From Magnolia sinica (taxonomy: Eukaryota; Streptophyta; Magnoliopsida; Magnoliales; Magnoliaceae): 64,000 bases of DNA. The DNA lies in NCBI RefSeq assembly GCF_029962835.1, contig NC_080582.1, positions 76,566,177 to 76,630,176 on the forward strand, given 5' to 3'. A program made the position numbers and the translations under genes. Positions 2,581 to 33,600 of this stretch are shown here, piece by piece. The first letter of the stretch is position 1. Every line of letters begins with the position of its first letter. Under the pieces are notes generated by a model that had not been told where the DNA came from, ran no database searches, and saw nothing but the letters and a program-made list of their open reading frames with translations.

Positions 2581-5500
2581 TGTTGAGGGTCAAATATTGT
2601 ATATTTGACCCCAGTTATTGCCTGGATTTACGTACATGATACTGTTTAATAACCCATTTTAATCGTGTTTGTGATGCAATGTGTATTTACAAGCTTGGAT
2701 TGAAAAAAGGGTGATAAAAGCATGAATTTAACGCTCATAAATCACCAAGGCAAGGGACAGACGCTAGAGGATCGAGATCGAAGACATTACACGCCAGAGA
2801 TCCGAGAAAACTAGGCTACACGTTTAAATGGGCCTGAAAATTATCTAGAATGCAAGATTACAGGGTTACCACTATTCGTTTGGCTCGAAACTTCATATAT
2901 GGCCTGAGGACCATAAATTAACCATCCACGTAGAATTTTAACCACTGGATCTTCGTGAAATTTTCCCAAATGACAAATCAGCTACTAAATCTTTGATCTG
3001 GGGCCCACTTGATATCTGGATAAGCTTCAATTTTGGTCTCAACGCGTTAAATGAGCTGACAATATGGATGGACGGAAGGATTTCTCATGAACATCTTCGC
3101 AGGACCTCATGTACATAACGTGTGCATAGTGCACAAGTGCACCAGTCGTGCACCGAATTTCTCAAAGTCGGTCAGCGCACGCTGACCGACTCTCTCTTCT
3201 CCAATTCAAAAACGGACACAGCATCCTCATCGTGTCCGTCGATTTTTGATTGTGGGCCCCACCCGTCGTCCATGTGGACAATCAGAGCTGTCCATTGTGA
3301 CCAGAGGTTGGGTATGACCCTCGCATAGGTGGATGTTGGCCCCATGAATACATCGTATGTGCATGAGGACTCAAACGGATGATAGACGGTAGAATAGAAG
3401 ATCTTGTGGGCCACATCGAAATCAATCCAATCTCGCTATTCCCAGATGGTTTTTCGTCGTGAAACTAATGGACGGTGTGTATTTCTCCATCACTGTCAAT
3501 CTGGGACCCACCGACCATCACAACGCGAATGCGCAGGCTCTGTTTTGCAAACAGAGCCTGCGGACAGAACTTGTGGGCCACCATCAAGGACTCACGTTGT
3601 TGATCTGGACCTTCCATACTGTTTGGGGCTTCTTTCAATACAAAATCATAAATTTTGGAGGATTCATGCAAGACGTAGCATGCGCAGGCATAGTCGCAAG
3701 GGAAACCGCTTCTTTTTGAAACTAGAAGATCTCGGTTGTTCTGTGATCAGCGGGCCATTTTATGGTGTGATCAGGACCATAAAAACTTATTCCAGGGGAC
3801 AACTAACCAAGGCCAAGAAGCCTGACTGGTTAGATCTTGTATCGGGCTCTCAGTTTCGCCAAGACAAAATTCTTGCAACACAGAGTCGGTTGCAGTTTCT
3901 TTTCCGCTGCATAAGTTGTCGCACAGGACTGACAGCTCACTGACTTTCTCCATCGCCTGCAGGCTTCTCGGGGGGGGGGGGGCAAGAAGAGCAAGAAGGA
4001 GAGAGAAAGCTCCACCGTTGGTTCCTTTTCTTCCCTGCTTTTCTCAATTTTATTTATTTTTAAGATGTTTAGCCTTGCCATGTCTATGCTCGGCTAAACC
4101 TCTTAGCTAGGGTTAAGAGGTGAAGCTTGTAGAGTGATGGAGAGACTTTTTGCTTGTGCCTTTTGTTTAGATTGAATTGAAATTGATCGTAGTTTGATTA
4201 TGGGAAATGCCTGTAGTTTTTAATGGTTTATTGTAACTTAAATTACAGTAGATCTGTAAGACCCGTATCATAGTCCGTACTATTCTATAGATTCCTGCAA
4301 TCCTCCCTGTCGAATTTCGGTGATCCGCGACTTATAATTGGTGTTTGCGCGTGATCCTGAGTCGTGTCCCGTATATTAGAATCGACTCAACCCGAGACTT
4401 GTACCAGTGCGACCGCGCCGTCGCCACGGTTCCGATGCCATGTCTTGTGCGCCGAGACAATACTCGGGATAGGAGATGTGGGCCTGCGTTCAGTTCGAGG
4501 GAAACGCCACATATTGCAATCCCAAGAGAATGTCCCATCAATCGCATCAAGTGTCAAGTACCCCATCCCATCATGTCAAGTACAAACACCCATCCCCAAG
4601 CAACCCCTAAAGTCAACACACTCTCTCTCTCTCTCCACCCATCAAGTACACCTATCCATCACTCACATCTCTCACCTATCACCTCTCTCTCTCTCTCTCA
4701 TTTCTCTCTCATTTTCTCTCAAGCTCCATAAGAGCAACTCACGTCCAAGCTTCCATGGGAGAGAGCTTGTGTAGCCCACTTTCCTACCTCCCATCTCCAC
4801 CATCCAATGATCATCTAGACCGTTGAAATCATCCACTTGGAACTCTAGATCACATTGGCGGAAGAAGGAAGAAGAGATCAAAGGTAGGTGTTTCTTTTGT
4901 TTTGTTTGTGTGGATTTGATTATTAGAGGGCCCACATGTGGTGGGACCCATCTTGATGTATGTTTTGCATCTTGGAGGGGCCCATAGTGGCGGGGTCCCT
5001 CCCTTTTTTTTTTTTTTTTTTTACTGTTCTCTCTCCTTTTCTCTCTTCTTTTTTTTTGGTGAAGATGATAATGGGTGGGGCCCACTTGATCCATTCCATA
5101 CAACCGTGAGGACCCACCTCAATGTATGTATGCATCTGGCCATCCATCTGCTGGACTACCTAGGATGGTGCCAGGCCATACCATGATATATGTTTGATCC
5201 ACACTGTCCAGACAGTTTGGACAGGCGCTGGACGGTGCTGTGAAGGCCACACTATGATGTATGTATGATCCACACCTTTCAGACAGTTTGGACAAGCGCT
5301 AGACAGTTTGGACGGTGCTGTGAAGGCCACACCATGATGTATCTTTTGATCCACCCGTCCAGCCGTGGTACCCACCTTGATTTATGTATTTCCTTTTAGC
5401 ATTGTACTCAAATGATTATATTAGTGGATATGTGATGATGATGTTACCTTTGTGAATTGGGTAATCTTGTGGTTATGCTTATTATGAGTTAAATGTATAA

Positions 5501-6218
5501 AAAAAAATTCTCCTTGTAGGATCCCAGGATCGGAATCTGGCGTCTGGACGCTAGGAGCCGAGAATGGGTACTACGGAGGTTGTCAACACAGAATTTGGTG
5601 ATCGAGATTCCTGAGAATCCGATTTTCGGGTTTGGGGCGTGACAAGATCTGTGATGACTTTGAGTATTTCCTTTTCCTTATTATGATTATGACGTCAAAA
5701 AGACCTGTTGTTCACCATTGTCTCCTGGGCATGGTTGGATGACGGAACCCTTCCTAACCTTCATATATCTTTCTGATTGGTTATAGATTGGTTTAATTCT
5801 GTTGTTTACTTTGTCTCCTGGGCATGGTTTGGTGACAGAATCCATTCTAATTCTTATACCTCTCTTCTCTTGAAAACTAGATCAAAGGAAGTTCAGATTT
5901 GATTTTCATGCTTACACGCTCCAACTGGATGAAGATGGGACTCTAAATCCAGTTGAGTTCTTGAATCAAGCATAAAGATCTCACTGATCTCTACAAGTGG
6001 ATCCTCTAAAACCCTAGTTTCCTACATTTGAATTTCATGAGTTTTAGTTAAATAAATTCACAATTATTCCCTTTCTTTTACTTGATTTAGATTTCATCTT
6101 ATCCTAGTTCTAATTCAATTTATTTTCAGATTACGTACACCGTTCAATCCTTGTGGATTCGACTTTGGTCTTACCGAGTTTATTTCTACATCACAACCCT
6201 ATACTTGGGATGTGAACA
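2581..6218 (+). mobile_element. Ty3-type 3' LTR, interrupted by a solo LTR
   Basis: The LTR begins TGTTGAGGGTC at 2581 and ends GTGAACA at 6218. The same LTR occurs inverted at about 31467-33600, sharing the start, the 'tggcctgaggaccataaatta' region and the end 'cacaaccctatacttggg'. Removing the 1390-bp solo LTR and its 5-bp duplication leaves roughly 2.2 kb, close to the 2.1 kb of the other copy. A G-run lies near 3970. Open frames inside it (for example 3404-3943) are chance frames of LTR sequence. Immediately to the right begins gag sequence of an oppositely oriented element, so this element probably inserted there. Confidence 0.75.
4255..5644 (+). mobile_element. Solo LTR of a second Ty3 family (Tekay/Del-like)
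   Basis: It starts TGTAAGACCCG and ends GGGGCGTGACA, with TG...CA termini, and is flanked by a perfect 5-bp target duplication 'agatc' at 4250-4254 and 5645-5649. There is no internal region and no second LTR, so it is a solo LTR left by recombination between the two LTRs of one element. Its length is 1390 bp. It contains a CT-rich tract, a long T-run near 5005-5022 and two repeats of a 'cagacagtttggacaagcgc' type near 5200-5310. It sits inside the LTR of 2581-6218, so it is younger than that element. Confidence 0.85.
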
Positions 6219-7845
6219 TGGGCCAGAAAGGTCCTAGTCTCCTTAACATTCGGTTGTGTATCAAGTCTTGCAATCAAAGTTCTAAGTTCATTCATAGCCT
6301 GTAGTTGGTCCTGCCTAAATGTATCTAATGTATTCTCAAGGGTTCTCCTGGGTGGAGGTCCATTAGATGACCCTTGTGGATAATTGGTTACATTTGCAGT
6401 TGGTTCATTTTTTCAATTAAAGTTTTGCCAATAAAAAGTGTTGGTATTAGAATTTGGTGCACTAAGTAGCCGTTGATATGGATTTGTAGTATCTGCTTGA
6501 ACGTGAAACACCTCTTAAAAAGCTAGGATTATAGGACAATCATTGGTTAGGTGTACAACGCTCTCATAATTTTCACATACGGTTTCAACGATTGTTTTAA
6601 ACTGAGTTGATTCCTTCCTAGATTCCAAGTCCTCAATTTTTCGTGTAAGAATTATCAACTGTACATTAATATCATCCTCCTTGTTGAGTACACGTACTCC
6701 TATCTCTCTTGACACTTCCTTGGGATTACTAGCTTAGTTTGATGTGTCCCATGATTGGGAGTTTTTAACTAGAAGTCAAAGTAATCCTGGGCATCTTCTG
6801 GTTTCTTATCCATGAACTCGTCATTACACATTATCTGTACGAATTGGTGCATGTTCGGACTAAGTCCGTCATAAAAAAAGATCAATTGTTCGCCAAGTTT
6901 CATAACCATGGTGCGGGCAAGTGAGAAGTGAGTCTTTGAACCGTTCCCAACATTCAAAGAAGGTCTCATTATTTTTCTAGGAGAAGTTCATTATTTTCCG
7001 TCTAAGAGTGTTGGTTTTATGAGTCAGGAAGAACTTTTTAAAAAACTCCTGGTTCATCTTTGCCCATATGCCAATGGATCTAGGCTTTAATGAATGAAAC
7101 CATGATTTGGCCTTTTTTTTTATATAGAGAGAATGGAAATAATTTAAGGCTAATTGTATCAGAAGGAACATCATCAAAATATATGTTCGTAACGATCTCT
7201 TCAAATTCTTTAATATGAATATATGGATTTTCTTAATCAAGTCCATGAAACTTATGAAGTAATTGGATTATCTCAGGTTTAAAGTCCACGTTTCTTGTAT
7301 TGATTGGGAGAATTATGCTGGAAGGTGTACTTGTTCTCACTAGTTGTAAATAATCTTGTAAAGTTTGAACCGGTGGAACCCGATGCACTTCATTCTCATC
7401 ATGCACCGTCCTGATAGGTGGTGTGTGACGCACATGATCTTCATCAATATAATGTTATTGAGCTATGCGTTCAGATGATATTTCAGGAATATTTAAGGGT
7501 TTTCTAACACGTTGATGGATTGTGAGTCCTTCAACCAAACCTCCTTCACTCAAAAGTCTATGAGTGTTGTCACAAACCCACTTGGGCATGAAACACTTAT
7601 AACCTTCAAATTCTAAACAACTAAAACCAAAGGAGAAGAAAAAATTACAGAAATTAGAAATATGAAAAGAAGAGAGTTGGAGAGGAGTTACCGGATTGGA
7701 ATTGCTATGTAAGTTGCTATAAAACAAAAAACGAGGTTAGTTTCTAAAAACAAATTGAGAAAAACCTAACCTAAAAATACATAGAAAAAAGCTATAATCC
7801 TAAACTAATTCCAATACTAATCAATCTCAGAAAAATGTACCCCAA
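6219..7845 (-). mobile_element. Athila/Tat-like Ty3 element, leader and gag region (fossil)
   Basis: Minus-strand frames between 7433 and 6515 resemble plant Athila/Tat gag. The stretch 'KAKSWFHSL...IWAKMNQEFFKKFF..HKTNTLRR' (7246-6977) matches the typical 'kAkaWl.sLp...ltW.el...FL.kFFp..kt..lr.ei' pattern, and 'EQLIFFYDGLSPNMHQFVQI' (6969-6769) matches the following conserved block. Gag-like sequence continues toward 6230. The region lies between its own primer-binding site and LTR on the right and the foreign LTR end at 6218 on the left; pol is not present in the window. It is broken at several places. Confidence 0.65.
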
Positions 7846-7863
7846 GTCCCGATAACGGCGCCA
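7846..7863 (-). other. Primer-binding site, tRNA-Asp type
   Basis: Read on the minus strand this is TGGCGCCGTTATCGGGA, one base away from the TGGCGCCGTTGCCGGGGA type that pairs with the 3' end of plant tRNA-Asp, the usual primer of Athila/Tat-like elements. It follows the LTR end by a few bases, as expected. Confidence 0.65.
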
Positions 7864-7868
7864 AAAAC

Positions 7869-9240
7869 TTATTCACAACCCCAAGTGCAGGGTCGTGATG
7901 TAGTAATAACTCAGTAAGACCAAAGTCGAATCCACATGAACTAAACTTGTATGTATTCTGAAAATAACTAGAAGCAGAACTAGAATCGAAAACTAATTCT
8001 GAAATAAAAGAAGTAATTGTGAATGAGTATCGATCAATCAAAAGGAAACTAGAGTGCCAAGGATCTACTTATAGTTATCAAGATACTACCTTACTTGATT
8101 CAATAAACACAACTGGAATTGAAGTCATATCCTATCTAGTTGGAAAATAAAATAATTGAATCACAATCTGAACTTTATATTGAATTAGTTCAACATAAAG
8201 GAGTATCGTGATGATTGGAAGGGATTCCATCATCTTACCATGCCCAGGAGACGATGGTGAATAACAAGATTTATCGATCTCAAATTCTTAGAATGGAAAA
8301 GAAGATTTTCAAAACTATTGCAGCGTTTTGTAATTTGAGTCACAATAAACTATAGAAAACTGAAAATATTTCTAAAATTCAAGTTTGAAATCAATTAAGT
8401 TCAACATAAATAAGAATCAAAGCAAAATAAACATCCCAACACACTACAAGCTTCACCTTTTAGTTTTAGCTAAGAGATTAGCTAGTCATAGGTAACTCAA
8501 AAATATAAGAAAAATAAAAAGATCTACTATAACCCATGAAGAAATCGAAGCAGAAGAACGTCGTTCGCACTTCACCTAGGCCTCCTGTCCATTTTCAAAC
8601 CCTAGAAGATGCTTTCGAACATCATAGACACTCCTATTTATAGTTGTGGAACTCTAACTTTCGCATTGAGGTGGAAAAATCCACAAATCTCCTCAACTTT
8701 ACACACTTCGCGTAAGCTCCGCATAACGCCTTCGATGCCATCGAACAACCTTCGATTATACCTTCAATCGCACCTTTGATGTCATCGAAGCTTTTCTAGA
8801 ACTGTCTAGCGAGTTTGGCTTGAAAAATCCTGAAATTCTCGATTGCATCGAATTAGCTTCGATTGCACCTTCGATGCCATCGAAGTCTATTCTGCCACTT
8901 TTTCAGAACTATGTTTTTCTATCTCCGGAATTTCAGCATATCTTTTTTCAGGACAATTTTCAAGATTCATTTTCTTCACTTCAAATTTTCAAATATCTTC
9001 ATTTTTCACATGGTTTCCTTAGATCTTTGCCATGTGAATTCTTATTAATGACTTCCAAATCTCCAATTCTTCATTGTCTTCTTTTAAGATCTAAATTCAT
9101 CCTTTTAATTGTACATTTATCATATGCTTTCAAATCATTTCGTATGACAAAAACGCATATAATTAAATCAAATTATCAATTAAATGCCAGAAAAACCAAT
9201 GTAATTGAAGGGTTAAATATGAAATATTTGAGTCTCGACA
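7869..9240 (-). mobile_element. Athila/Tat-like 5' LTR (minus orientation)
   Basis: On the minus strand the LTR runs from TGTCGAGACTC at 9240 to about GTTGTGAATA at 7869, followed by the primer-binding site. Its start resembles that of the LTRs at 2581 and 33600 (TG, then 'gag.gtcaaatatt...atatttgacc'), so it is a related but distinct subfamily. The section 8730-8900 carries several copies of the short palindrome-like motif 'cttcgatgccatcgaa'. The right 650 bp (8591-9240) are duplicated at 13934-14583. Confidence 0.75.
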
Positions 9241-9543
9241 GCCAACCTGGCACATGTGCAAAACTTAGCATCCATCAAATGAGTTCCACCATCTTAGATG
9301 CAGTTTCCAAAAATTAAGTTCATCCACACACACCAGATGAACAACATTTTATATAATAAATGGACCGGTGAAGAAGCAGAGGCAAGTTTTTAACAATGTG
9401 GCAATTTCATGAAAGGACATGCCTACTTTTGGGCAATGGTATCTATCATGATATTACCCACGTAATGAATGTCTTGGATCCTCTAAACTGTGTCATGTGA
9501 TTCTTACCATCCGATTAATAGCTAAGAAAATGGAGGGTCCATA
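8591..9543 (+). repeat. 953-bp direct repeat, left copy
   Basis: Identical in length to 13934-14886, with about 6 base differences and no gap seen by eye (about 99.4% identity). It covers the U3 side of the minus-strand LTR (to 9240) plus about 300 bp of neighbouring unique sequence. The two copies exactly bracket the Ty3 fragment 9544-13933. Homology stops at 'ggtccata', after which the left copy continues into gag sequence and the right copy continues toward the receptor kinase gene. Confidence 0.95.
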
Positions 9544-12500
9544 GGTGGGTTGCGACCAACAATTCAGGACCGAGTTCAGATGTACCCAGTCGGGACTGTG
9601 GATGAAGCAGTTCAATTGGCGGGTAGGGCAGAAACACAACTTGCAAGAGCTCCTGCTCGTCCATATCCTTCAACTCGACCCCCCATGACGGGTCCCACGC
9701 AGGATCCAGTGCTGCCACGAGGAAAAGACCCAGTACCTCAACTTCCTACAACCGCAAACCGTGATACGGGGAGCAGCTCATCCAGACCTCAACGTGCAGC
9801 ACCCACAACAGCGGGTCCGAGTAGGATTCCAAATCCTTATGCTCGGCCAAGGTCGAACAATTGTTACCGCTGTGGCCAACCAGGCCACTTATCAAACACT
9901 TGTCCTCAACGTCCCGCAACACACTTGACTATAAACTAAGGGGGCACTGAAGATGAGGCCGCAGAAGAAGACCATCACTTTAATGAACATGAACAAATCA
10001 CTGAAGAAATAGCAAATGACGATAAAATGAAGAGCGAGGATCGTGGCAAATTTCTAGTTGTGAGGCGATTGTTGTATGCCCCACGAAAGGAATTACATCC
10101 ACAACGACACAATATATTTCGTACTCGGTGCACCGTCAATGGAAAGGTCTGTGATGTGATCATAAACAGTGGTAGTAGCGAGAACATCATCTCAAGAGTG
10201 ATGGTGGACAAGTTGCGGCTACCAACGATGAAACATCCTTCCCCGTACTCAATTAGCTGGATAAAAAAGGTGAATGAGATCAATATAATTGAATAATACA
10301 CTATCTCATTTTCAATTGGCAAAAATTATAAAGATCAAATACTTTGTGACGTGGTCGATATGGAAGCTTGTCATATGTTACTCGGTCGACCCTGGCAGTC
10401 GGACCGTGATGCGACCCATCGGGGACGAGATAATGTTTACGTATTCGTAAAGGATAGTCGAAAAATAATCCTTACCCCTATGGCACCAGAGAACCACCCT
10501 GAAGCCTCTAAAGTGGAGGGGAGTTCCTTCTTCACCATTCGGGATTTCATGAATGAATCTAAGGAAATCGGTGAGGTATACGCTGTAGTGGTGAAAGGCG
10601 AGGAAGAGGAACCCTCAAACATCCCTCCAAGTTTAAGATTGTTGTTAAACAAATTCAAAGAAGTCTGGCTTGAGGATTTACCTGATGGATTGCCCCCTAT
10701 CCAACATCACATAGACCTCGTCCCTGGGGCTAGCCTGCCCAACCGTCCTCATTATCGGATGAGTCCGAAGGAGTGTGAGATACTTCAGGGGCAAGTGGAG
10801 GAATTGATCCGTAAGGGTCTCTTGAGAGAGAGCATGAGCCCATGTGCCGTACCAGCATTATTAACGCCAAAAAAAGATGGAAGCTGGCGCATGTGTGTCG
10901 ACAGCCGAGCAATCAACAAAATTACCATCAAATATTGATTCCCAATACCATGGTTGGACGACATGCTCGATATGTTAGAAGGGGCCAAGGTGTTCTCTAA
11001 ACTAGATCTAAGGAGCGGGTACCATCAGATTCGTATTCGACCCGGTGATGAGTGGAAAACGGCATTCAAGACCAAGGAAGGGTTGTATGAGTGACTAGTC
11101 ATGCCCTTCGGCCTATCGAACGCACCAAGTACTTTTATGCGTTTGATGAATCAAGTTCTAAAACTGTTCATTAGCCGATTTGTGGTAGTATATTTTGATG
11201 ATATATTGATAAATAGCCAGGATGAAGTGGAGTATAGGAACCATCTCAGGCAGGTGCTGCATGTCTTACAAATTAACAAGTTGAACCTCAACTTGAAGAA
11301 GTGTAGTTTTTTAATTGATGACCTATTGTTTCTAGTATTTGTTGTAACGTCCACGAGCATTCATGGGGACGATGAAAAGGTGCGAGCTATTAGGGAATGG
11401 CGATCCCGACAAACATTCATGAGGTGAGGAGTTTTCACGGGTTGGCGACTTTCTATCGTCGATTTGTGCGAGATTTTAGCACCATAGTCGCACCTTTAAA
11501 CAGATTGCATGAAAAAGGACCGTTCAATGGACCGATAAAGCCGATAAGAGCTTTCATGAGATCAAGCATCGTTTGTCTACAACACCGGTCTTGGTGCTCC
11601 TAATTTTGACAAATTGTTTGAGGTTGAGTGTGACGCTTCATATGCCGGAATTGGAGGAGTATTATCACGGGAAGGCAGGCCGGTAGCTACCACGAGAAGC
11701 TCAGAGAAGCCCGAAAGAAGTGGTCGACTTATGAGCTTGAGTTTTACGCATTTAAGCACTGCGACATTGGCGGTATTATCTGATTCAAAGAGAATTTGTT
11801 TTGTACACTTACCATCAAGCATTAAAGTTTATTAATAGTCAGACTAACGTGAATCGTGTGCATGCTAGATGGGTTGCGTTTTTACAGGAATTCACGTTCG
11901 TTCTGAAGCACAAGTCAGGGCAGCAGAACAAGGTGGCTGATGCACTTAGCCGTCGTGCATCACTACTAGTAACAATGAGCAACGAGGTAGTCGGCTTCGA
12001 CTGTCTCAAGGAGCTGTATGCCGAGGATGAGGACTTCAAAGATTCTTGGATGAAGTGTCAAGAAGGTCACCCCAGTGACCTTCATATACGGGACGATTTT
12101 CTCTTCAAAGGGAATCGATTGTGCATCCCCCAAAGTTCTCTGAGGGAGCAGATTATTCAGGAGCTACATGGAGGTGGCCTTGGTGGACACCTGGGGCGAG
12201 ACAAGACGCGAGCTCTTGTGGAAGAGCGGTATTACTGGCCGCAGTTAGTACGCGATGTGGGAAAAGCCGTACAACGTTGTCATGTTTGTCAGACCTCCAA
12301 GGGGCAATCTCAGAATACGGGCCTCTACACCCCGTTACCTGTGCCTAACGGCCCTTGGGAGGATTTATCAATGGACTTCGTACTTGGTCTCCCACGAACA
12401 CAACGCGGCATGGATTCGGTGTTCGTGGTGGTAGATCGTTTCTCAAAGATGGCGCACTTTATCCCATGCAAGAAGACCCTCGATGCAACACACGTGGCGA

Positions 12501-13933
12501 ATTTATTTTTCAGGGAGGTCGTTCGGCTACACGGGGTCCCCAAGACCATTACTTTCGATCGTGACACGAAGTTCATTAGCCACTTTTGGCGGACTTTATG
12601 GAATCGATTCGATACACGACTTCAATTTAACAGTGCTTACCACCCATAGACTGAGGGCAGACCAAAGTTGTGAATCGCACGTTGGGAAACCTCCTTCGCG
12701 GTATTTCAGGGAAAAATAAAGCAGTGGGATTTGGCCTTGTCTCAAGCAAAGTTTGCATTCAACAATATGGTGAACCGCTCGACAGGGAGATCACCGTTCC
12801 AGATTATTTACGGACGAGTGCCTCGCCACACACTTGACTTAGTCCCTCTGCCTAAGCACTCAGGCACGAGCATTGCAGCAGAACATATGGCAGACAAGAT
12901 CATGGGCATCCATGCAGAAGTGCAGACCAAGCTACATGCCTCGAACGAGAAGTACAAGGAACAATCGGACAAGCATCGGCGACAAAAAGTGTTCGAGGTA
13001 GGCGACCGCGTTATGGTCCATCTTCGCAAAGAGAGATTTCCGACCGGGACGTACAACAAGTTGAAAAATAAGAAGATTGGACCAGTACCAATCATCCGAA
13101 AGATCAATAACAACGCTTATGTTGTTGATCTCCCAGATGACATGGCAATCTCACGGACTTTCAATGTCACGGACTTAATCGAGTATCATGAACCAGAGCA
13201 TGACGAGAACTCGAGGACGAGTTCTTTTGAAGTGGAGGAGACTGATGTAGAGCAGGTCGCAGACAGTTACATTACCAAGATGGATCGAAAAGGCCCGGTC
13301 GAGAAGTGATCCCGACCATCGAACCTTAAATCGGGCGTATCTTGCAATCCGGAATGAGTTATCGACGTAAAATATATGATTTTGGGGTAGAACGAGCTAC
13401 AAGCCAACCAACCCGCTACGCCGGGTTACGCAACCCGAAATTGCGAAAAACCCCTGGATCGACGGTCGTTTTCCTGTTTTAATTTCATTTTTACTATAAA
13501 TAGTTAGTTTTAGTTTGATTATAACTCTTCATCCATCGGGCTTTAGGAGTTGTGTCCAACATGAAAAGAGCTTAGAATAATTAGGAAAACGGTTTGGTGA
13601 AGCCAAATAGGACACTTACTATTTTTGACCAAAAACCTTGCGCACTAGTAGACATCACGACCGTCTATTAATAGTAAGTTTACTATTTATAGTAAGTCAT
13701 GAATTCTAGGAGTTTTAGTTGTAGTTTGATTTTGATTTCTTTCTCATTGTTTGGTTCCCCTATTTAAAGGGTTGTGAACTCATTTTTATGCATTCATTAA
13801 TCAATTTCAAATTTATTAGAATTTATTTCTATTTTCTACTTTCTTTCCTCGTGAATTCGAGAAGTCTCTGTGAGGAGTCCAGGGAAGTTCCATGGATTCG
13901 GAATAATTATCCCCATCACGTTCATCCTTCTCA
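9544..13933 (+). mobile_element. Front-truncated Ty3/gypsy (chromovirus-like) element
   Basis: Parts in order: the back of gag with a CCHC zinc knuckle (CYRCGQPGHLSNTC, about 9862-9905); an aspartic protease region around 10140-10210; reverse transcriptase with the [14 protein letters not shown] block (about 10855-10900) and the YFDDIL catalytic motif (about 11190-11207); RNase H; integrase with an H-H-C-C zinc finger (about 12165-12300) and catalytic core; an integrase tail (to 13306); and a 3' LTR. There is no 5' LTR and the front of gag is absent. The coding part is broken in several places, about five or more. The very similar flanking repeats suggest it arrived here recently, even if the element itself is older. 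CRM or Reina clade is possible; I cannot decide. Confidence 0.9.
13307..13933 (+). mobile_element. 3' LTR of the Ty3 fragment
   Basis: The LTR begins TGATCCCGACC right at the end of the integrase frame and ends near 'catccttctca'. It contains a TATA-like 'cctatttaaagggttg' at about 13763-13780. A second LTR of this family lies inverted at 20236-20854 in the receptor kinase intron; shared blocks include 'tttaaagggtt', 'gaggagtc' and 'ttatcccc'. The right end falls at or within a few bases of the family's LTR terminus and touches the second copy of the 953-bp repeat. Confidence 0.75.
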
Positions 13934-14886
13934 ATTTTCAAACCCTAGAAGATGCTTTCGAACATCATAGAGACTCCTATTTATAGTTGTGGAACTCTAA
14001 CTTTCGCATTGAGTTGGAAAAATCCACAAATCTCCTCAACTTTACACACTTCGCGTAAGCTCCGCATAACGCCTTCGATGCCATCGAACAACCTTCGATT
14101 ATACCTTCAATCGCACCTTTGATGTCATCGAAACTTTTCTAGAACTGTCTAGCGAGTTTGGCTTGAAAAATCCTGAAATTCTCGATTGCATCGAATTAGC
14201 TTCGATTGCACCTTCGATGCCATCGAAGTCTATTCTGCCACTTTTTCAGAACTATGTTTTTCTATCTCCGGAATTTCAGCATATCTTTTTTCAGGACAAT
14301 TTTCAAGATTCATTTTCTTCACTTCAAATTTTCAATTATCTTCATTTTTCACATGGTTTCCTTAGATCTTTGCCATGTGAATTCTTATTAATGACTTCCA
14401 AATCTCCAATTCTTCATTGTCTTCTTTTAAGATCTAAATTCATCCTTTTAATTGTACATTTATCATATGCTTTCAAATAATTTCGTATGACAAAAACGCA
14501 TATAATTAAATCAAATTATCAATTAAATGCCAGAAAAACCAATGTAATTGAAGGGTTAAATATGAAATATTTGAGTCTCGACAGCCAACCTGGCACATGT
14601 GCAAAACTTAGCATCCATCAAATGAGTTCCACCATCTTAGATGCAGTTTCCAAAAATTAAGTTCATCCACACACACCAGATGAACAACATTTTATATAAT
14701 AAATGGACCGGTGAAGAAGCAGAGGCAAGTTTTTAACAATGTGGCAATTTCATGAAAGGACATGCCTACTTTTGGGCAATGGTATCTATCATGATATTAC
14801 CCACGTAATGAATGTCTTGGATCCTCTAAAGTGTGTCATGTGATTCTTACCATCCGATTAATAGCTAAGAAAATGGAGGGTCCATA
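13934..14886 (+). repeat. 953-bp direct repeat, right copy
   Basis: Matches 8591-9543. The first 650 bp are LTR sequence of the Athila/Tat-like element; the last 300 bp are the unique 3' flank of the receptor kinase gene. Because this copy is continuous with the gene flank on its right and the left copy is continuous with the rest of the LTR on its left, the original locus must have had a single copy joining 8590 to 14887. Confidence 0.95.
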
Positions 14887-15095: not shown

Positions 15096-15511
15096 TCAAT
15101 CCTCTCCAATGATGGTAGAAGATGATATCCCAAGTGACGATGCAAACGTTGCGCTAGTATCGCCTATAAGATATCTCTTGAGCCGATCCAAGTCGTCGGC
15201 TGCATCGAGCATGGTGGGCCTCGTCGAAGGGACCTCTTGGGTGCATAGAACACCCAATTCAATCAGCTCGCCGATAGCGACTTCCCACATCTTCTGCACT
15301 TCTGGGCTCTGGTCCCTTGCAGATCTGATCAATGAAGAATCTATCACCTTCTCCACCCTCCCATGATAGTGGCGCTTGACCCATTTGTGCAGATCCAGGC
15401 CACCAACAAACATGTCGTCAGTGGGTCTCTTTCTAGTCACCATTTCAAGCACTAGAATGCCAAAGCTGTACACATCTCCTTTGGTAGATGTATTTGTTCC
15501 ATATGCATATT
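15096..15511 (-). CDS. LRR receptor-like kinase, exon 2 (kinase C-terminal lobe)
   Basis: This exon completes the kinase begun in exon 1 (21106-23686). The acceptor is ...ttgggcag with the exon starting AATATGCATATGG; joined to the exon 1 end it restores GSIGYIAPEYAYGTNTSTKG, the activation-loop end and APE motif (subdomain VIII). Then follow GDVYSFGILVLEMVTRKRPT (subdomain IX), a C-lobe with the usual distal arginine (QEVPSTRPTMLDAADDLDRL) and a short Ser-rich tail ending IIGED. It adds 137 full residues, giving a total of 998 (992 from the second methionine). The frame is open throughout and ends at TAG/TGA-type stop at 15096-15098. No residue expected of an active kinase is missing here. 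Confidence 0.93.
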
Positions 15512-17168
15512 CTGCCCAAACCAATGTATAAAACTTTAATTAAAATACATTTGTGCATGTAAATATGGAAGAGGCTTCTAGACATGTTTGTACGTGTGTT
15601 TTAATGTTCCAAATCATTTGTATGATGAGCCCATAGTTTAAAAAAGCAAAAAATAAGAGTGACTCAAAATCGAGTTGACTGGAAAACTCAAGCTGAGTTT
15701 TTCAAAAACTCTTATAAGCTTTACTAAGTTTTTTCAGTATTATTTAATATTTATGAAGTGTAAATAGTATATAAAGAATGTCGAGTTGTGCAAAGCTGAA
15801 GTCCGCATTTTGTCATGGTTTTTTAGTCTAGTTTCTTGATTAATTTTATTTTGACTCGAGAGAACTGAGCCCGAGTTATTTCAAGTTCTTAAAATTATGG
15901 ATGGGCCAGACTATTGGCATGGAGATAAGTGAAATAAGAAATATTTCAACCCTTTGATTATTGAACTATTTTTTTTTTTTTTTTTTAAATAATAATAAGA
16001 AGATGTCCTCAAAGGGATGGCGGCTGATAATGTGCAAATGGGTTGGGTTGAATTGACAGGCCTTGTTCGAAAATAAGTGAGCCTATAGGTCCTAATTTTA
16101 GAGCAATGGGGTGAACCTGGGTCCAAAAGTTCAACCCAAATTACTAATGCGTCCTCTCAAAATAAATCAGACACAATCCGATTTGAACCTAGTTTAAACA
16201 GGTTCAATGTAGCTGATGCTAAAATAGGCCCAATCTAAGCCCAACCCAAATCAAGATCCAATGTAGACTCAAGGAAACATAGTTAAGATTACAACAATGG
16301 TTTATTACTGTTTTTTTTTTTCCTTGTATCTAAAATGAGATTACCCATCCACTACTTTTGTGACAATCTACACCGTATAAGTTGTGAACCCTTGTCAAGG
16401 AAAAATATACTAAAATCTTATTTTATTATATATTCATTGATTTTTGGACCGCTGGCCTTCTTTCTCTACCCTCAAAATTGGTAGCTACCACCAATTGAAT
16501 AATTTGTAACATTATTTGTAAGAAAGCTCATGTGTAATGCGTATACTCGACTCAAACCTAATGCAAATTAACCTGACCCATGTGATAAATGGGTCAGGTC
16601 TGGTGATGATGATGGACCTCACCATTGATGGTGTACAATCATTTCTTATATTCCTAGATCAGATAATGATTAGTCTCAGTGGATGAAAAAAGAGAGTAAT
16701 GTTTTGAAATATTTTATAATAATAATAATAATAATAATAAAATGAGAAGTGAGAAACCTTCCAATTCTCTTTGAGCACTATAAGTTATGGTGCTTTTAGT
16801 TTCTCTTGGACAGTCCGATATATCAACGTAAACTATCTATTAATCTCGAAACACATTTCATGGACTACCGTATAAAAATCTCGTTGATGAGATGATAATA
16901 AATGAGAAATGAGAAATGCTCCAATTCTCTTAGAGCCCTGGAAGTTATAGTGCTTCTAGTTGCATCCATTCACTTGGACAGTCCAATCCTATTAATTTCA
17001 AAACACACTTTATGGAGTATCTTACAAAAATTACACTGACCAGATAATCCAATCCATCATTGATTTCACCTTATTTTCTAAAACTATCCCTTTCCCAGCC
17101 ATGGATGGGATGGTTCTGATTGCCTTAAAGCTAGGTAATCCATGAAGGGCACTAACAAAGAGACAGAT

Positions 17169-17740
17169 AGGGGTGTACATCGAGTTGATGATCTCAGCTG
17201 GAACTCGGCTCGGCTCAGTCCTTGAGCCTGACTGGCCAGCTCGGCTCGGTTCAGTCAACAGCTCGGGCCAGCTTGAGCCGAGTTCGAGCCAAGATTGAGC
17301 CAAGTTCTCCATTGAGGCATTTCTACAAACACCTAGACTGCATCTTCAAAATCCCTCTGTATGTGAAACAGAAGCAATGGTTTTACATGTATTTTATCAA
17401 ACACCTTCTAGGCAACATAAAAACCAAGAAAAATCAAGAAAAACGGATATTTGTTTCATGTACATACCTTCTTTGCCATCGGCCACACTTCGTTGAGTCA
17501 TTTTATCAAACACTCGGTGAGCAACATCAAGGACAAAGTAATCGAGTCACCGAACTGGTTCAATCCGAGTTTGATTCAAGTTGGATTCGATCCGAGTCAA
17601 ATCGAGCTGGGGCTTGTTCGAACTCGGCTCGAACTCATTTTCGAGCTCAAAAAATCAGCTCGACTCGGCTCGAACTCAGCTTCGAACTGAGTCAAGTTGA
17701 GCGAGCTAACCAAGCTAGCTCGGTTTGTGTACACCCTTGT
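17169..17740. mobile_element. Non-autonomous hAT-like element with 8-bp target duplication
   Basis: The element starts AGGGGTGTACA and ends TGTACACCCTTGT, giving short inverted ends, and is flanked by a perfect 8-bp duplication 'agacagat' (17161-17168 and 17741-17748), the hallmark of hAT elements. Its subterminal regions are packed with 'gagctcggctcg' and 'cgaactcggctcg' motifs, as in many plant hAT families. No transposase is encoded. It lies in the kinase intron. A related end with the same 'ggtgtaaacgag...gccgagc' look occurs at 62465. Confidence 0.88.
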
Positions 17741-18225
17741 AGACAGATCATGTTCCCGCCTAGTCTTTTTTTTTTTTTTTTTTTAATCTTTTTAAGAATC
17801 TTGACCATACATAGCAAAGGACATTGATCAAATGGTCAATATTCATCAAATGGGTGCGATGTTTGCATGCACGTTAGGCCACGAAATATGTGTTGGACAT
17901 AATGACTGGCCTAGACTAAGTAGCCCAACCCAAGGTTCATATACTTTAGCCTTAACTCAACCCAACCTAACCTTAGGTTGGAAATTCTCAACCCAACCTC
18001 AACCCAACTGGGCTCGTTCAGGTTGGTCAGATGGACATATGCTAATATTTTCGTTATTATATTTGTCTATTATATTTTCAATGCATGTCTTATTTTTTGT
18101 ACATATAATTTTATTATTATATATGTAGTTATTTATAGTAAAGAAGTTCATTTTTTCTAAGAAAATAAGCTAAAATATAGGACAACTGTTCCTTAAAAGT
18201 CATGTTGTATAGCGTGCTATTTGGG

Positions 18226-20235: not shown

Positions 20236-20935
20236 TGAGGCAGGGATGGACGTGATGAGGTCAGTCACCGTCTTCCTCAAGGGGATAACTAGTCCGAATC
20301 AACGGTGTTTCTCTAGACTCCTCATAGAAATTCCTCGAACATATGAGGAAAAATTAAAATATAAAAAGAAATTCTAAGAAATTCAGAAATTAATTAATTA
20401 ATCATAAAAACGAATTTATAACCCTTTAAGTAGTGAGGCCAATCCTAGGAAGAAGTTTAAGAATCAACTACAACTCAAAACTCCCTAAAATCTTGATTAC
20501 TATTCATAGGTGGTCATGATTTTTACCAGACTATGATTTTTGGCCAAAAATAGTGTCCCATTTGGCCTAACTATATTGTTTTTGTAATTTTTCTAAGCAT
20601 TTTTCATATTGGACACAGCTCTTAAGACTCAAAGGATGAAGAGTTATGATCTAACTAAAACTTACTATAAATAATAAAAACGGAAATAAAATGGTTTTCT
20701 ATGGTCGATCTAATGGAATCTCGCAAATTCACCGTGGCCAACCGGACATAGAGGGGTTGGGTGGCTAAAGTAGCTTCTCCTAACCCCAAAATCATACATG
20801 GTACGTTCCTGTTTGCGAGATATACTTGTTTTAAGGTTCTGATGGTCCTAATCACTTCTGCCTTCGATCTGACCTTCTCTGGTCCATCTTGAACAAGAAA
20901 GTGTCAGCAACCCGCTCTACATCACATTGCATGCA
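20236..20935 (-). mobile_element. Ty3 element tail: integrase end plus LTR (fossil)
   Basis: On the minus strand, 20935-20855 encodes an integrase tail (DVERVADTFLFKMDQ) matching DVEQVADSYITKMDR at the end of the element at 9544-13933, followed from 20854 by an LTR starting TGATTAGGACC and ending near 20236. The LTR shares TATA-like 'acttaaagggttataaa' and other blocks with 13307-13933 but is clearly diverged, so the two insertions are not recent duplicates of each other. It lies about 170 bp from the splice donor. Only the last part of the element is present. Confidence 0.8.
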
Positions 20936-21105
20936 TTATATTTAAACCTACAAGAATCCAATCCAATCCATTGATTGCAGACTCGTTGACTCAGCCATCT
21001 CGGGGACTGAACCTCGACTCTGAGTTGACTCGGACGAGTTCTCAAACCATCCACGATCCAATCCAAATAGATAAAAGCAATGAAAAGGGAAGAAAAGAAC
21101 AGTAC

Positions 21106-23686
21106 CTGGTGCAATGTATCCAATGGACCCACTCAACATATTTGCAGTAGAATTCCCCACGTTTTCAGGCCCACCATTTCCAGCTCCTCCAACGTTCATC
21201 ACCAACCGTGCAATCCCAAAATCAGACACCAGAGCGGTCATATCATCGTTGAGAAGAACATTGCTAGGCTTCAGATCGCAATGTATAACTCTCACCGGTG
21301 AATGGTGGTGCAAGTACGCCATCCCCTCAGCTATATCACTGCAAATACTCACTCTTTGTATCAATTCCAAATCTGACGGCTCTGATCCCATCCTCGCTGA
21401 CGCCGGATATAGATGGCTCTCCAAGCTGCCATTTGCCATGAACGGCAACACCAATGCCTTGAATTCCGGCAGGCTGCACGCCGTTATGATCCTCATGAGG
21501 TTCCGGTGCCGGATCCTCTTCAAGACCTGGCATTCCCTATTGAAACTCTTCGTCGAGTTGCCAGTTTGCAGGTGAAGGACCTTAACAGCGACGATGGTTC
21601 CATCCTTGAGGACCCCACGGTAGACGTGTCCAAAGCTTCCAGTCCCGATCAGCCTCCCTTGATCGAATTCTGCCGTCGCTTCTGCTAGCTCCTTATATGT
21701 GATCCTTGGGAAGCTGAGTTTCAATGAAGGCGTGGACTTGCTCGATGCGTCGGCCTTCCTTGGGACTATTTTCCATTTGATCTTCTTGAATGCAATAATG
21801 TAGAACACCGCCAAGAGTAATGCTGATGCCGGCGCGACGACAGAAACAATGATCTTGAACTTGCGCGAGTGCCACCATCTTCCCTTCTTCATGCAAGGTG
21901 TCACGCCAGGGATTGATCCACATAGTTTTGGATTTCCGAGGAAGGAGAGATATGTGAAGTTTGCAAAACTTCTGTTCCTTGGTATCGGTCCATTGAAATC
22001 ATTATATGAGAGGTTCAGCTGAACAAGACTACCGGAATCCCCGAGACCAACCGGGATCTCTCCATATAATGAATTGTTGGAGACGTCGAGTGATTTGAGG
22101 TTCCGAAGTAATCCTAACGCACTGGGAAGCTTCCCTTCAAGCGAATTAAGAGAGAAATTGATCATGACAGCGGCGATGCAGCCGTCTAGCTGAGGGGATA
22201 TGTTTCCATGGAAATGGTTCGACGATAGATCAATTTCTTGGACTGTTTGCATCTTGCTAAGCTCTGATGGCAGTGGCTCATTTATAAAATTGTGTGAAAG
22301 ATTCAAGAAAATTCCCATATGGGTTAGTCCAAATATTTCTTTAGGAACTGCTGTTAATGTGTTGAAAGATACATCCAACCTGTTTAAGGACATGCACTTT
22401 CCTAGAGAAGGTGAGATTCCTGAAAGCTTGTTTTCTTGAAGAAAAAGATCGCTGAGGAAGATGAGGTTTCCTAGACTATCTGGGACTTCGCCCGATAATC
22501 TATTTTTTGATAAATCAAGCTGATTCAACAGATTAATCTGTCCAATTGATGGAGGAATTGGGCCGATTAGCGAATTGTTGGATAAGATTAGCCATTGCAG
22601 GTTCTGTAATTGGCCTATCTTGTCTGGGATCGTCCCGTTTAGGAGGTTGCTTGATAAGTTGAGTACAGTGAGATTGGAGAGGTTGACTATGGTGGTCGGG
22701 ATCGATCCGAATATCCAGTTGTCTTGGAGATATATGCGTGATAAGTTGATCCCGAGCCGATCGATGGTGGTCGGTAATTGGCCTCCAAGGCCCATTCCCG
22801 CCAATTCGATGGCCTGTAAGTGAGTACAGTTGGAAAGGGCTGTGAAGAAGGGGACAAGATTGGTGTTGTGATCATGGCTTGTGAAATGGTTGTTTGATAG
22901 GTGGAGGAGTTCGAGGAGTGGCCATCTGCCGAGGATTTCAGTGGGCAATTCGCCAGAAAAGCTGTTGTTCTCCACATCCAACCATTTCAAAATGGTGCAA
23001 TTTGATAGCGATGGAGGGAGTTTCCCACTCAAATTATTTGAATATAGCTGGAGGAACATTAGGTTGGAGAGATGGTTTCCTATCTCTGGTGGGATTTCTC
23101 CATGGAGGGTGTTCTCAGATAAATCTAAGTAGCCTAATGATGTGCAATTGTACAAGATCGATGTGGGGATGGTGCCTTTCAGACGATTTCCTTTGAGGTC
23201 TAGATAAAATAGTTGAGAAAGGAGGGAGAGTGAATCAGGGATCGGACCGTCGAGACGGTTTCCGAAGAGGTTGAGCTCATTGAGGCGCCATAGGGAGCCC
23301 AGTTCTGGCGGTATGGGCCCCACAAGGTTGTTTTCAGATAGGTCAAGTAAGAGTAGCCCAGTGAGATTGGAGAGGAACGGAGAGAGCAGTCCATGAATGC
23401 CGCTACGGTTGAGCCAGAGTTCAACCACACGGTGCTGCCGATGGTTGCACACCACACCTGTGAAATTGCACACATTGGATGAATTTCTCCAGTTTGCAAG
23501 TGCAGCTTGAGTGTCTTGAGTCATGGCGGCCTTGAAGGCCAGGAGCGCGGCCTTGTCAGTGAGAATTGTAGGATGGTGATGATGATAGATCGACGGGTGT
23601 GCTGTTGTGTAGATCATATGTAAAAAGAGTAGTAGAAAGATGGTCTTCTTCATGGGGTGGATCTCCATGTCGATGGTGGCGATCAT
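21106..23686 (-). CDS. LRR receptor-like kinase, exon 1 (ectodomain, membrane span, most of the kinase)
   Basis: Plasma-membrane receptor kinase of the At2g24130/LRR-XII-like type (family named from memory). Residues counted from the ATG at 23686: signal peptide about 12-29; LRRNT-type cap about 43-81 with the paired-Cys NVCNFTGVVC; about 20 plant LRRs (LxxLxLSxNxLxGxIP) from about 88 to 580; C-terminal Cys cap NPKLCGSIPG; one membrane span about 611-633; kinase from about 677 with GTGSFG (681-686), VAVK with Lys702, IHCDLKPSN (801-809) and DFG (822-824). HCD instead of HRD marks a non-RD kinase, common in plant immune receptors. The ATG at 23668 (residue 7) is the one conserved in the paralogue, so it may be the real start. 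Exon 1 ends at 21106 after CACCAG; exon 2 is at 15096-15511. Confidence 0.95.
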
Positions 23687-29413: not shown

Positions 29414-30094
29414 CTCTGCCTGTGACAAAATTAGTTTCTTGTTTTCCCTGTCACGCTTTATCTTCATACCTAGGATTTGTTTTGCAGCTCTTAAATCCTT
29501 CATGACAAATTCTCTAGATAGTTATCTTTTGAGATCTGAGATGTCCTTCATGCTTAAACTAGCTACAAGCATATCATCAACGTACAGAAGAAGGATGATG
29601 TACGACATATCAAACTTCTTCAAATAGCAACAGTGGTCTGCATGACATATTCTAAAACTAGTTTCTCGTTTTCTCTGTCACGCTTTATCCTCATGCCTAG
29701 AATTTGTTTTGCAGCTCTTAAATCCTTCATGGTAAATTCTCTAGATAGTTGTCTTTTGAGATCTGAGATGTCCTTCATGCTTAAACTAGCTACAAGCATA
29801 TCATCAACGTACAGAAGAAGGATGATGTACGACATATCAAACTTCTTCAAATAGCAACAGTGGTCTGCATGACATATTCTAAAACTAGTTTCTCGTTTTC
29901 TCTGTCACGCTTTATCCTCATGCCTAGAATTTGTTTTGCAGCTCCTAAATCCTTCATGGAAAATTCTCTAGATAGTTGTCTTTTGAGATCTGAGATGTCC
30001 TTCATGCTTAAACCGGCCACAAGCATATCATCAACGTACAGAAGAAGGATGATGTACGACGTATCAAACTTCTTCAAATAGCAACAGTGGTCTG
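29414..30094. repeat. Three tandem copies of a 227-bp unit
   Basis: Units start at about 29414, 29641 and 29868, each running from 'ctaaaactagtttc' through 'caacgtacagaagaagg' to 'caacagtggtctgcat'. The two right units are almost identical; the left is more diverged. The array lies in the reverse-transcriptase region of the copia fossil. Confidence 0.93.
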
Positions 30095-31382
30095 CATGAC
30101 ATCTCCTAAAACCGTTTCCCGACATGAAACTGTCGAACTTCTTGTACCACTGCCTCGGGGCCTGCTTCAGGCCATATAAACTCTTCTTCAGTCTGCACAC
30201 CTTGTTCTCCTTTCCTGGTGCCACGTATCCTGTCGGCTGATGCATATATATCTCTTCTTCAAGGTCCCCATGAAGAAAGGTTGTCTTAACATCTAGCTGC
30301 TTTAGATGTAAGTCCTCTGTAGCCACTATACTCAAGACCATACGAATCATAGACATTTTCACCATAGGTGAAAATATTTCAGTGAAATCGATACCTGCCT
30401 TTTGTTGAAACCCTTTCACAACCAATCTAGCCTTGTACCATTTCGAACCATTGTGCTCCTCCTTTACTCTGTAAACCTACTTGTTATGAAGAGTTTTCTT
30501 ACCCTTGGGTAGAGTGACTAGCTCCCATGTACGATTAGACTCAAGAGAGTCCATCTCATCATCCATGGCCTGCTCCCACTTAACCCGTGTATCCGACTGT
30601 AATGCCTCTTCAAAACACTCTGGTTCACCATTATCTGTCAGCAGTAGATAATATAAAGAGGGTGAGTATCAGACCGTGGGTCTCCTCTCCCGAGTAGACC
30701 TCACAACAGGTGTCTGTGGCTCTACCTCATAATGCTCCTGTGCATGATCATTTTGTGGCGTTGTAACACCCATGTACGGTAACTCTTACAACTCTACAAA
30801 TTTATTTTTTTCGGCCTTATTTTCCTGCATAGTCCTTATGTATCACTATTTCATTGAAGACTACATCTTTGCTTCTGAAGATTTTCTTATTTTTTGCATC
30901 CCAAAACTTGTAGCCAAAATCATGCTGCTCGTAGCCTATAAACTTGCACCTCCTGGACTTCTCATCCAGCTTGTTTCTGTGCTCTGCATTAATGTGAACA
31001 TATGAAGTGAACTGAACACTCTGAGATGTGCAAGGTTCATTTTTTTTCCGGTCCACGTTTCTTCTGGTAGCCCACCATCCAATGGTGCTGAGGAACTTCT
31101 ATTAGTGAGATATGCGACAGTATTCACAGCATCTGCCCAAAAGGTCTTGGGCAACCCTGCATGTAACCTCATGCTCCTGACGTGCTCAAGGATGGTCTTG
31201 TTAATGCACTCAGCTACACCATTCTGCTGCGGTGTCCCTGGAATCATTTTCTGATGTTTGATTCCATTTGCTGCACAATACTCCTCTTATCACAGTACTC
31301 TCCCCAATTATCAGATCTAAGACATTTTAATGTTCTACCTGTCTCGTTTTCTACCATAACTTTTCACTTCTTAAATACGTTA

Positions 31383-33600
31383 AAATCTTAATCTTAAATT
31401 AATTCTAAAACTAATTAATTTCAGAGAATCGTAACCGTCAGTCCCCGGCAACGGCGCCAAAAACTTTTTCACTCCCCAAGTATAGGGTTGTGATGTAGTA
31501 ATAACTTGGTAAGACCGAGGTCGAATCCCAAGGGACTGATATTTGTACGTTGTCTGAAAGTAATTAGAACTAAAACTAGAATGAGATGAAATTTAATTCG
31601 AATTGTAATTTGATTAATAAGAGTGAACACTAATCTAAAACTTAAGTAATTTAGAGGAAAGAAACTAGGGATTCAGAGGATCCACTTGTAGGGATCAGGG
31701 AGATCTTATGCCTGTATCAATAATTATAAAATTTAAACTGAACTTACTTGATCTGGTTTTCAAGAGATGAAAGGTATATGAATTAGAATGGATTCCATCA
31801 TCTAACCATGCCCAGGAGACAAAGCAAACAACAGGATTAAACTAATTACCAACCAATCAACAGCAGATGAAAGTCAGGAAGGGTACCGTCATCTAACCAT
31901 GCCTAGGAGATTATGGTGAACAATAGGGCTTCCTGACATCATAAACATCAAAAAGGGAAAAGAAATATTCAAAGCCATTGCAAATCCATTGTAATTTCAG
32001 TCACAACAGACCATTAAAGACTAAGAAAAACATTCCTTTAATGATCAACACAAATCAAATTCAGTTCATGAATTTAAGTTAAAAGCTTGAAATAGTATCT
32101 CCCATCTCGCTACAGGCTTCACCTCCTAGCCCTAGCTAAGGGGTTTAGCCACACATGAATGAGCTAAAATAAACAAATAAACAAAAGAAAAAGAAGAGGA
32201 AAAAAAACCACAGTAAGAAAATTAAAGTAAAAAGAAACTTCTCTCTCTTCTCCTTGGCTTCACGTTCCAATAGCCAAGATCTCCTTTTCCTCCGGTCCCA
32301 AACCTCCTGCTTGAATCCCCTCCATCTCTCCTTTCTCTTGTATTTTATACCTGCCAGGGGTTCGGAACAACTGCTGCGATATACGCAGTCCATAAGCATG
32401 CGCGTCAACGTGGAGAATTTTCGCAGCAACAGTGCCGCGGATCTGGTTGCAGACTAATTTACGTGCGCGTGAAGTATCTTCTGGATGCGAAACCAGTTAG
32501 GTTGGGGCCGAAACTGTCCTATGAATGTGATAGACGAATTGGATTACCCAGTTCGATCACAGGGGTGGGCCACATCAAGTCGCAATGGCGAGGCTGCCTG
32601 TTCACGTACGCGACGAGAAATCCCATTGATTCCGGGATTTCCTACGAAATTACTTTCTATTTTCTTTTTCTTTCAATCCTTCTCCATGTGTGGCCCACTT
32701 CCTACAAATCCTCCAACCTGATGGACGATCTGAATCATATGTGGGTCCCACCATCTTGCAAACAGGCCCTGTCCATCAACTCCAAGGTTTTTCTGCTGAG
32801 AAACACGTACATCTACATGTAGATGTCCACGAACACACACCTAAGGTCCGGTCAGACGTGGCCCCTGATCATGTTGAATGGTCTGGATCATCCGAACGGA
32901 TGACAATGATGGCCCACAACGTCCATCAAACGGACGTTGTGCGTTTGCTGTGCGCTGCTGCAAAACAGGGTTGCTGTGCGCGGCTGTGGATATGGGAGGG
33001 ATATCTCCTAATTTGAATAGGAGCCAGTGCACAGCTGGTGCCTGGTTGTTGGTGAGCTTACACTGCACGCGGGGTCCACTGATGATGTATACGAGAAATC
33101 CGCTCCGTCCATCCGTTTTGACACCCAATTTAAGGGGTTGAGACCAAATTTGAAGCGTATCCAAATATCAGGTGGGCCCCAAATCACTGATTTATGGGCT
33201 GATCTGTCCGTTGGGCCACTTCCAGAGGGATCCACTGGCTGAAATTTAACGTGTACGGTTAATTTATGGTCCTCAGGCCATGTATAAAGTTTCAAGCCGA
33301 ACAGATGATGGAAACTCAGTGATCTTGCATTCTGGCTTACTTTCAGGCCGCTTGAGCTTCAATTTCTCGATTTTCGCGAATCCCTAGCGTGTAATTCCGT
33401 CGATCTTGGTCTCCTGGAGTCCGTCTCTTGCCTTTAGTGTCATCAGAGCGCTAAATCCATGTTTTAAGCTTCCTTTTCAGTCCATGCTCGTAACTACACT
33501 CTGCAACACAAAAACGATTTAAATCGGGCCGTTAAACAGTATCATGTTCGTAAAATCCGGCAATAACTGGGGTCTGATATGTAATATTTGACCCTCAACA
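31383..33600 (-). mobile_element. Ty3 5' LTR with primer-binding site, nested in the copia element (fossil)
   Basis: On the minus strand the LTR runs from TGTTGAGGGTC at 33600 to about 31467, followed by a tRNA-Asp-type primer site TGGCGCCGTTGCCGGGGA (31442-31459) and about 60 bp of leader before copia sequence resumes. It is the same LTR family as 2581-6218. Only the front of the element is present. The U5 side contains 'ccatgcccaggagacaaag', a stretch also present near 5730-5830 and 8230-8260. Sequence between 33601 and about 33830 is of unclear origin. Confidence 0.85.
31442..31459 (-). other. Primer-binding site, tRNA-Asp type
   Basis: TGGCGCCGTTGCCGGGGA on the minus strand, the standard Athila/Tat-type primer site, a few bases behind the LTR end. 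Confidence 0.85.

Follow-up and report, generated by a model that had tools for sequence, protein, structure and literature searches.

Duplicated sequence around transposons and breaks may have several causes. Joins between sister chromatids or homologous chromosomes have been proposed for tandem LTR elements (section of PMC11899658 on these structures), and tandem duplication at breaks has been described (in part of PMC8355091; compare PMC5730883). Large indels in wheat are attributed to double-strand-break repair and unequal crossing over in an excerpt of PMC6097286. Duplications may also be introduced during assembly. According to excerpts of PMC9516828, 4 to 16% of the sequence in earlier vertebrate assemblies was falsely duplicated, mainly through unmerged haplotypes, and the signs of such false duplications are gaps between the paired copies, halved depth and read pairs that are discordant.

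The locus described here lies in a window of 64,000 bases from Magnolia sinica (the whole stretch of DNA that was analysed), in which a 5'-truncated Ty3 element is set between two 953-bp direct repeats (Table 1). It is a real sequence feature that combines an ordinary Ty3 integration with one unusual joint, and it is most simply explained by the joining of an unoccupied version of the insertion site to an occupied one, whether by the plant or by the assembler. We met no description of this exact layout in a small sample of the literature, and make no claim that it is unreported.

The initial annotation had described two flanks of 953 bp with about six substitutions and no indel, and our comparison bore this out to the base. 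The two copies, offset by 5,343 bp, differ by six substitutions (at 8629, 8671, 8790, 8993, 9136 and 9488 in the coordinates of the left copy) and by no indel, and the match breaks off sharply at 8590 and 9544; positions 8588-8589 also match, outside the mismatch at 8590. The pair gives E=0.0 with blastn, which excludes chance, and a repeat finder recovered a 300-bp family, 99% identical, with the same spacing as the 953-bp pair. The whole window contains no N, and the joint at 9543/9544 is gap-free. The copies have diverged by 0.63%, or about 0.3% change per lineage, and a difference of this size without indels is compatible with allelic divergence. Five of the six differences are transversions, which is unusual for natural divergence, though the numbers are small (with transition fractions of 0.33, 0.5, 0.6 and 0.67, one transition or none among six would be seen with probabilities of 0.36, 0.11, 0.04 and 0.02, respectively).

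The 4,390 bp between the repeats consist of a decayed Ty3 element. Ten stop-free pieces, picked from 70 open frames on both strands that overlap the fragment, were used as input to a Pfam scan, and seven of them gave matches at E up to 0.1. The domains follow one another as CCHC zinc knuckle, protease, reverse transcriptase (RT), RNase H, integrase (H2C2/rve) and a Tf2-1-like SH3 domain, which includes the protease, RT, RNase H and integrase order of Ty3 elements. RVT_1, RT_RNaseH, Integrase_H2C2, rve and SH3_Tf2-1 each exceed the Pfam cut-off in at least one piece, in that order; the protease matches, which are weak, and the first RT and first RNase H pieces fall below it. RT is represented by two pieces of the same frame with a stop between them, and RNase H by two pieces of different frames. 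The fragment starts inside gag, as originally annotated, with the zinc knuckle downstream of 9544.

The copy is thus truncated and incomplete, with one LTR bearing TG...CA ends in place of two LTRs and a matching 5-bp target-site duplication (TSD). A nucleotide search of the fragment against the window found no second LTR of this element, the one other similar stretch being 20281-20924 on the minus strand, which lies in a solo LTR. A translated search against the rest of the window returned this solo LTR and, dispersed near 24.0, 31.8 and 35.7 kb, three short stretches. Outside the window, the 27-base pattern of the left junction had no exact match in viral_contigs, and an integrase piece had no relative in viral_contigs and 11 pattern matches in genome_contigs, none of them confirmed. 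These misses mean little, since the two are not plant collections and the genome records of the window itself were possibly omitted from them.

The right end of the fragment was calibrated against the solo LTR, which belongs to the same family. Read from 20924 to 20236, the solo LTR runs TGATGTAGAGC...CTCA, with CAATG directly on each side as a perfect 5-bp TSD. By this independent yardstick, a purine-rich tract lies ahead of the 3' LTR of the fragment, and the final base of that LTR (13933) is immediately followed by the start of the right repeat (13934). An end that had been placed "at or very near" the LTR terminus can therefore be placed at it. Because the fragment ends exactly at its LTR terminus, 13933/13934 is an ordinary integration end, and the ATTTT that follows it would be one half of a TSD whose partner is presumably 8591-8595 of the empty site. 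A giant target-site duplication made by integrase is ruled out by the size of the repeats and the truncated left end: instead of a direct repeat of 4-6 bp at both ends of an element, there are 953 bp, and the left end lies inside gag.

Table 1. Features of the locus and of the remainder of the window (coordinates in the window; strand given as + or -, or as a point where none applies).
Feature	Coordinates	Strand	Remarks
Left repeat copy	8591-9543	.	Probably the unoccupied target, presumably continuous with the left flank
Junction of repeat end and gag interior	9543..9544	.	Repeat match ends, gag knuckle downstream; the only junction needing an illegitimate join
Ty3 internal region, 5'-truncated and decayed	9544..13242	+	End of gag (zinc knuckle), protease, RT, RNase H, integrase; from ORFs and Pfam
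3' LTR of the Ty3 fragment	13243..13933	+	691 bp, TGATGTAGAGC...CTCA; matched to the solo LTR
ATTTT, presumed 5-bp TSD of the Ty3 insertion	13934..13938	.	Suggested by the exact LTR end; 5' LTR missing
Right repeat copy	13934-14886	.	Target beside the occupied insertion; the right flank beyond it holds a kinase-like gene end
Kinase-like gene end in the right flank	15099-15539	-	Pfam PK_Tyr_Ser-Thr 21.1 bits, cut-off 23.1
Solo LTR of the family of the Ty3 fragment	20236-20924	-	689 bp, TSD CAATG on both sides; yardstick for LTR ends
Three diverged leader-region copies of one element	3986-6216; 7775-8591; 31373-32269	+; -; -	Similarity ends at nearly one point
Related LRR frames	20948-23686; 52214-53995	-; -	85% identical over ~2.1 kb; first with LRRs and a kinase domain, second with LRRs only
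Tandem array	29427-30112		Period 227 bp, 3.0 copies, 96% matches
Tandem array	55435-55870		Period 217 bp, 2.0 copies, 94% matches

Besides the components of the locus, the window contains two related LRR frames, which possibly represent a tandem cluster with a truncated member, and an open frame (17192-17824, plus strand) to which no Pfam family was matched. The solo LTR adjoins the first of these frames, which encodes an LRR receptor kinase.

We tentatively favour a biological join, made in the plant rather than by the assembler, of an empty copy of the locus to an occupied one through end-joining or a template switch. A Ty3 element would have integrated normally just left of the repeat and duplicated ATTTT, so that the occupied chromosome would have the order left flank-ATTTT-Ty3-ATTTT-repeat-right flank, and the empty one the order left flank-repeat-right flank. 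The two would have coexisted either as homologous chromosomes or as sister chromatids just after the insertion. A single illegitimate join, by end-joining or a backward template switch, could then have led from the empty copy, at a point 953 bp beyond the site of insertion, into the gag region of the occupied copy. Its product would consist of the left flank, the empty target, the truncated Ty3, the target again and the right flank, with the two repeats as allelic versions of one stretch.

Such a joint explains both the 953-bp duplication and the 5' truncation. With an exact LTR terminus on the right of the fragment, only 9543/9544 needs an illegitimate event. A join of empty and occupied copies requires neither a 953-nt overhang nor fill-in synthesis for the second copy, and it places the first base of the repeat at the insertion point in both copies automatically; the right copy does abut the exact terminus of the element, as it would after such a join. 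A narrower version, in which the locus is a heritable end-joining product of homologs or sisters that differed by one retrotransposon insertion, with the empty and filled alleles now in tandem and a part-element between them, is somewhat less probable than the join in its broader form.

In the empty site that we infer at the left, the left flank would run directly into the repeat. This continuity is plausible but unproven, since the similarity to a paralogue stops at 8591 and alignment scores on the repeat side do not clearly exceed those of shuffles. The paralogue is a diverged relative of the left flank within the window (31373-32269). A strict alignment of the two ends at 8591/32269, and a lenient local alignment extends through the repeat to 9541/33163. 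Against the relative, the score of the last 60 bp of the left flank was reached in 1 of 500 shuffles and that of its last 120 bp in none of 500. Beyond the border, the scores of the opening 60, 120 and 250 bp of the repeat against the continuation of the relative were reached by 164, 269 and 147 of 500 shuffles, respectively, and that of 8591-9100 in 19 of 300. For a stretch spanning the border, the score was reached in 15 of 500 shuffles, compared with 273 of 500 for a control (the last 120 bp of Ty3).

The left flank may itself be an LTR that ends at 8591. The third copy of this leader region (3986-6216, interrupted and on the opposite strand) ceases to resemble the relative at about this position, and the border region may thus be the variable U3 of the family. 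A TATA-like sequence on the minus strand (8642-8636) would fit a variable U3 just past the border, and is only suggestive. An exact 10-base primer-binding-like core, which we take to be tRNA-Asp-like, is found only in the two minus-strand leader copies, at 7854 and 31450. The plus-strand copy and the copy in the left flank face each other.

Instead of a join in the plant, the assembly itself may have made the structure. In a plant with an ordinary Ty3 insertion on one of its two haplotypes, an assembly that changed at 9543/9544 from the empty haplotype to the occupied one would write the target twice and lose the 5' part of the element. The warning in the initial annotation that two haplotypes might have been joined is well founded. 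An assembler switch at this joint would give a sequence identical to that of the biological join. We regard this explanation as a serious possibility, albeit a less probable one. The repeats differ at 6 of 953 bases, as two haplotypes might; an overlap-based assembly, on the other hand, has no reason to join ends that do not overlap, which counts against a switch. Unmerged haplotypes are the main source of false duplication in the vertebrate assemblies treated in excerpts of PMC9516828, but gaps between the copies, a typical mark of such duplications in the same source, are not seen here: the joint, like the rest of the window, is free of N.

The age of the Ty3 element bears on how the join of empty and occupied copies is to be understood, as well as on the remaining explanations. 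In-frame stops are present at 10294, 10936, 11092 and 12647, and a fifth, at 9937, is possibly the natural end of gag. At the divergence of the repeats, the coding part of the fragment would be expected to have gained 11.6 substitutions and 0.51 new stops. The probability of at least four stops is then about 0.002, and of at least five 0.0002 (0.027 and 0.006 if the divergence is taken at its upper confidence limit), with piece boundaries for the calculation set by eye. Counting just 11092 and 12647, the stops most closely bracketed by Pfam matches of the same frame, gives a probability of 0.09, or 0.31 with the upper limit, and values of this size are no evidence. The absence of indels from the repeats has a probability of 0.05 if Ty3 contains seven frame changes and of 0.66 if it contains one; up to seven were judged by eye, and the Pfam pieces support only one, inside RNase H, where one of the pieces concerned is below the cut-off. 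By its CpG observed/expected ratio of 0.92, compared with 0.63 in the window, 0.59 in the left flank (7000-8590) and 0.83 in the left repeat, the element does not look old. The stop count suggests, though not beyond doubt, that Ty3 predates the separation of the repeats or was defective already at its insertion. Under a join of empty and occupied copies, an older Ty3 needs a later homogenisation of the repeats, or else an element that was already defective; homogenisation by gene conversion would also account for the difference in age.

The initial annotation had preferred a staggered break, with nicks about 953 nt apart, filling-in of both strands and a retroelement copy captured as filler. 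Its geometry fits the locus, a linear cDNA would also give the exact LTR end, and the tandem duplications from break repair that Vaughn and Bennetzen reportedly found in rice in 2014 lend it support. We nevertheless consider it improbable. A very long overhang is required, and copying of the filler from a genomic element would leave the exact LTR terminus unexplained. The stop count is also high for fresh cDNA of an active element: with four to five in-frame stops where 0.51 are expected, capture of a fresh copy is hard to reconcile with the fragment. This last argument does not hold if the copy came from an element that was itself defective, a possibility for which the undepleted CpG leaves room. 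The geometry of the proposal stands, but as the simplest reading it gives way to an integration with an exact LTR terminus, for which one illegitimate junction suffices.

A history of three events is about equally unlikely. Here a larger tandem duplication would be followed by insertion of Ty3 into the second copy, and then by loss of the sequence between the first repeat's end and a point within gag. Each of these steps is common in plants, and together they yield the observed order of parts. In the relevant part of PMC11899658, moreover, illegitimate recombination is the main remover of LTR-element sequence and leaves truncated copies. Three events are nonetheless invoked where an insertion and one join are enough. 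The duplication must also predate the insertion, so that a divergence of 0.63% beside a stop-rich Ty3 needs either gene conversion or an element that was defective at insertion.

Less probable still are two template switches in one replication across an old, fixed insertion, the first forward over the element via the 5-bp microhomology of the TSD and the second back into gag from 953 bp further on. They would allow an old Ty3 between young repeats, in agreement with the stop count, and would dispense with an empty allele, but two switches are required, the first of them exactly at the TSD, and the CpG ratio of Ty3 (0.92, compared with 0.63 in the window) does not look old. A tandem duplication followed by the chance landing of Ty3 at the repeat border was rejected as the main reading, since it needs an exact positional coincidence.

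If the structure is real, it records the joining of two alleles that differed by a transposon insertion. Any plant genome could then be screened for the succession of empty site, truncated element, exact terminus and filled site, and joins of this kind counted by that signature. If the assembly switched haplotypes, the same layout is a cheap flag for gapless mis-joins of haplotypes. Either way, the locus cautions against calling long direct repeats around a retroelement giant target-site duplications.

Among described systems, the tandem LTR retrotransposon structures (PMC11899658, in the section cited above) resemble the proposed join in that a connection between chromatids or homologs at an LTR element gives a rearranged and partly duplicated structure. 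In that account, however, the proposed join runs from LTR to LTR, whereas here it would run from the flanking target to the interior of gag, duplicating the target and not the LTR. The heterotype false duplications in the excerpts of PMC9516828 likewise present two allelic versions in succession, with a divergence like that of heterozygosity; gaps and half depth are typical of them, whereas the magnolia window, judged from its sequence alone, has no gap. The tandem duplications from break repair in rice share with our locus the direct repeats at a repaired break. They differ from it in that one of the two junctions here is a normal integrase end, and that a 4.4-kb element lies between the 953-bp repeats.
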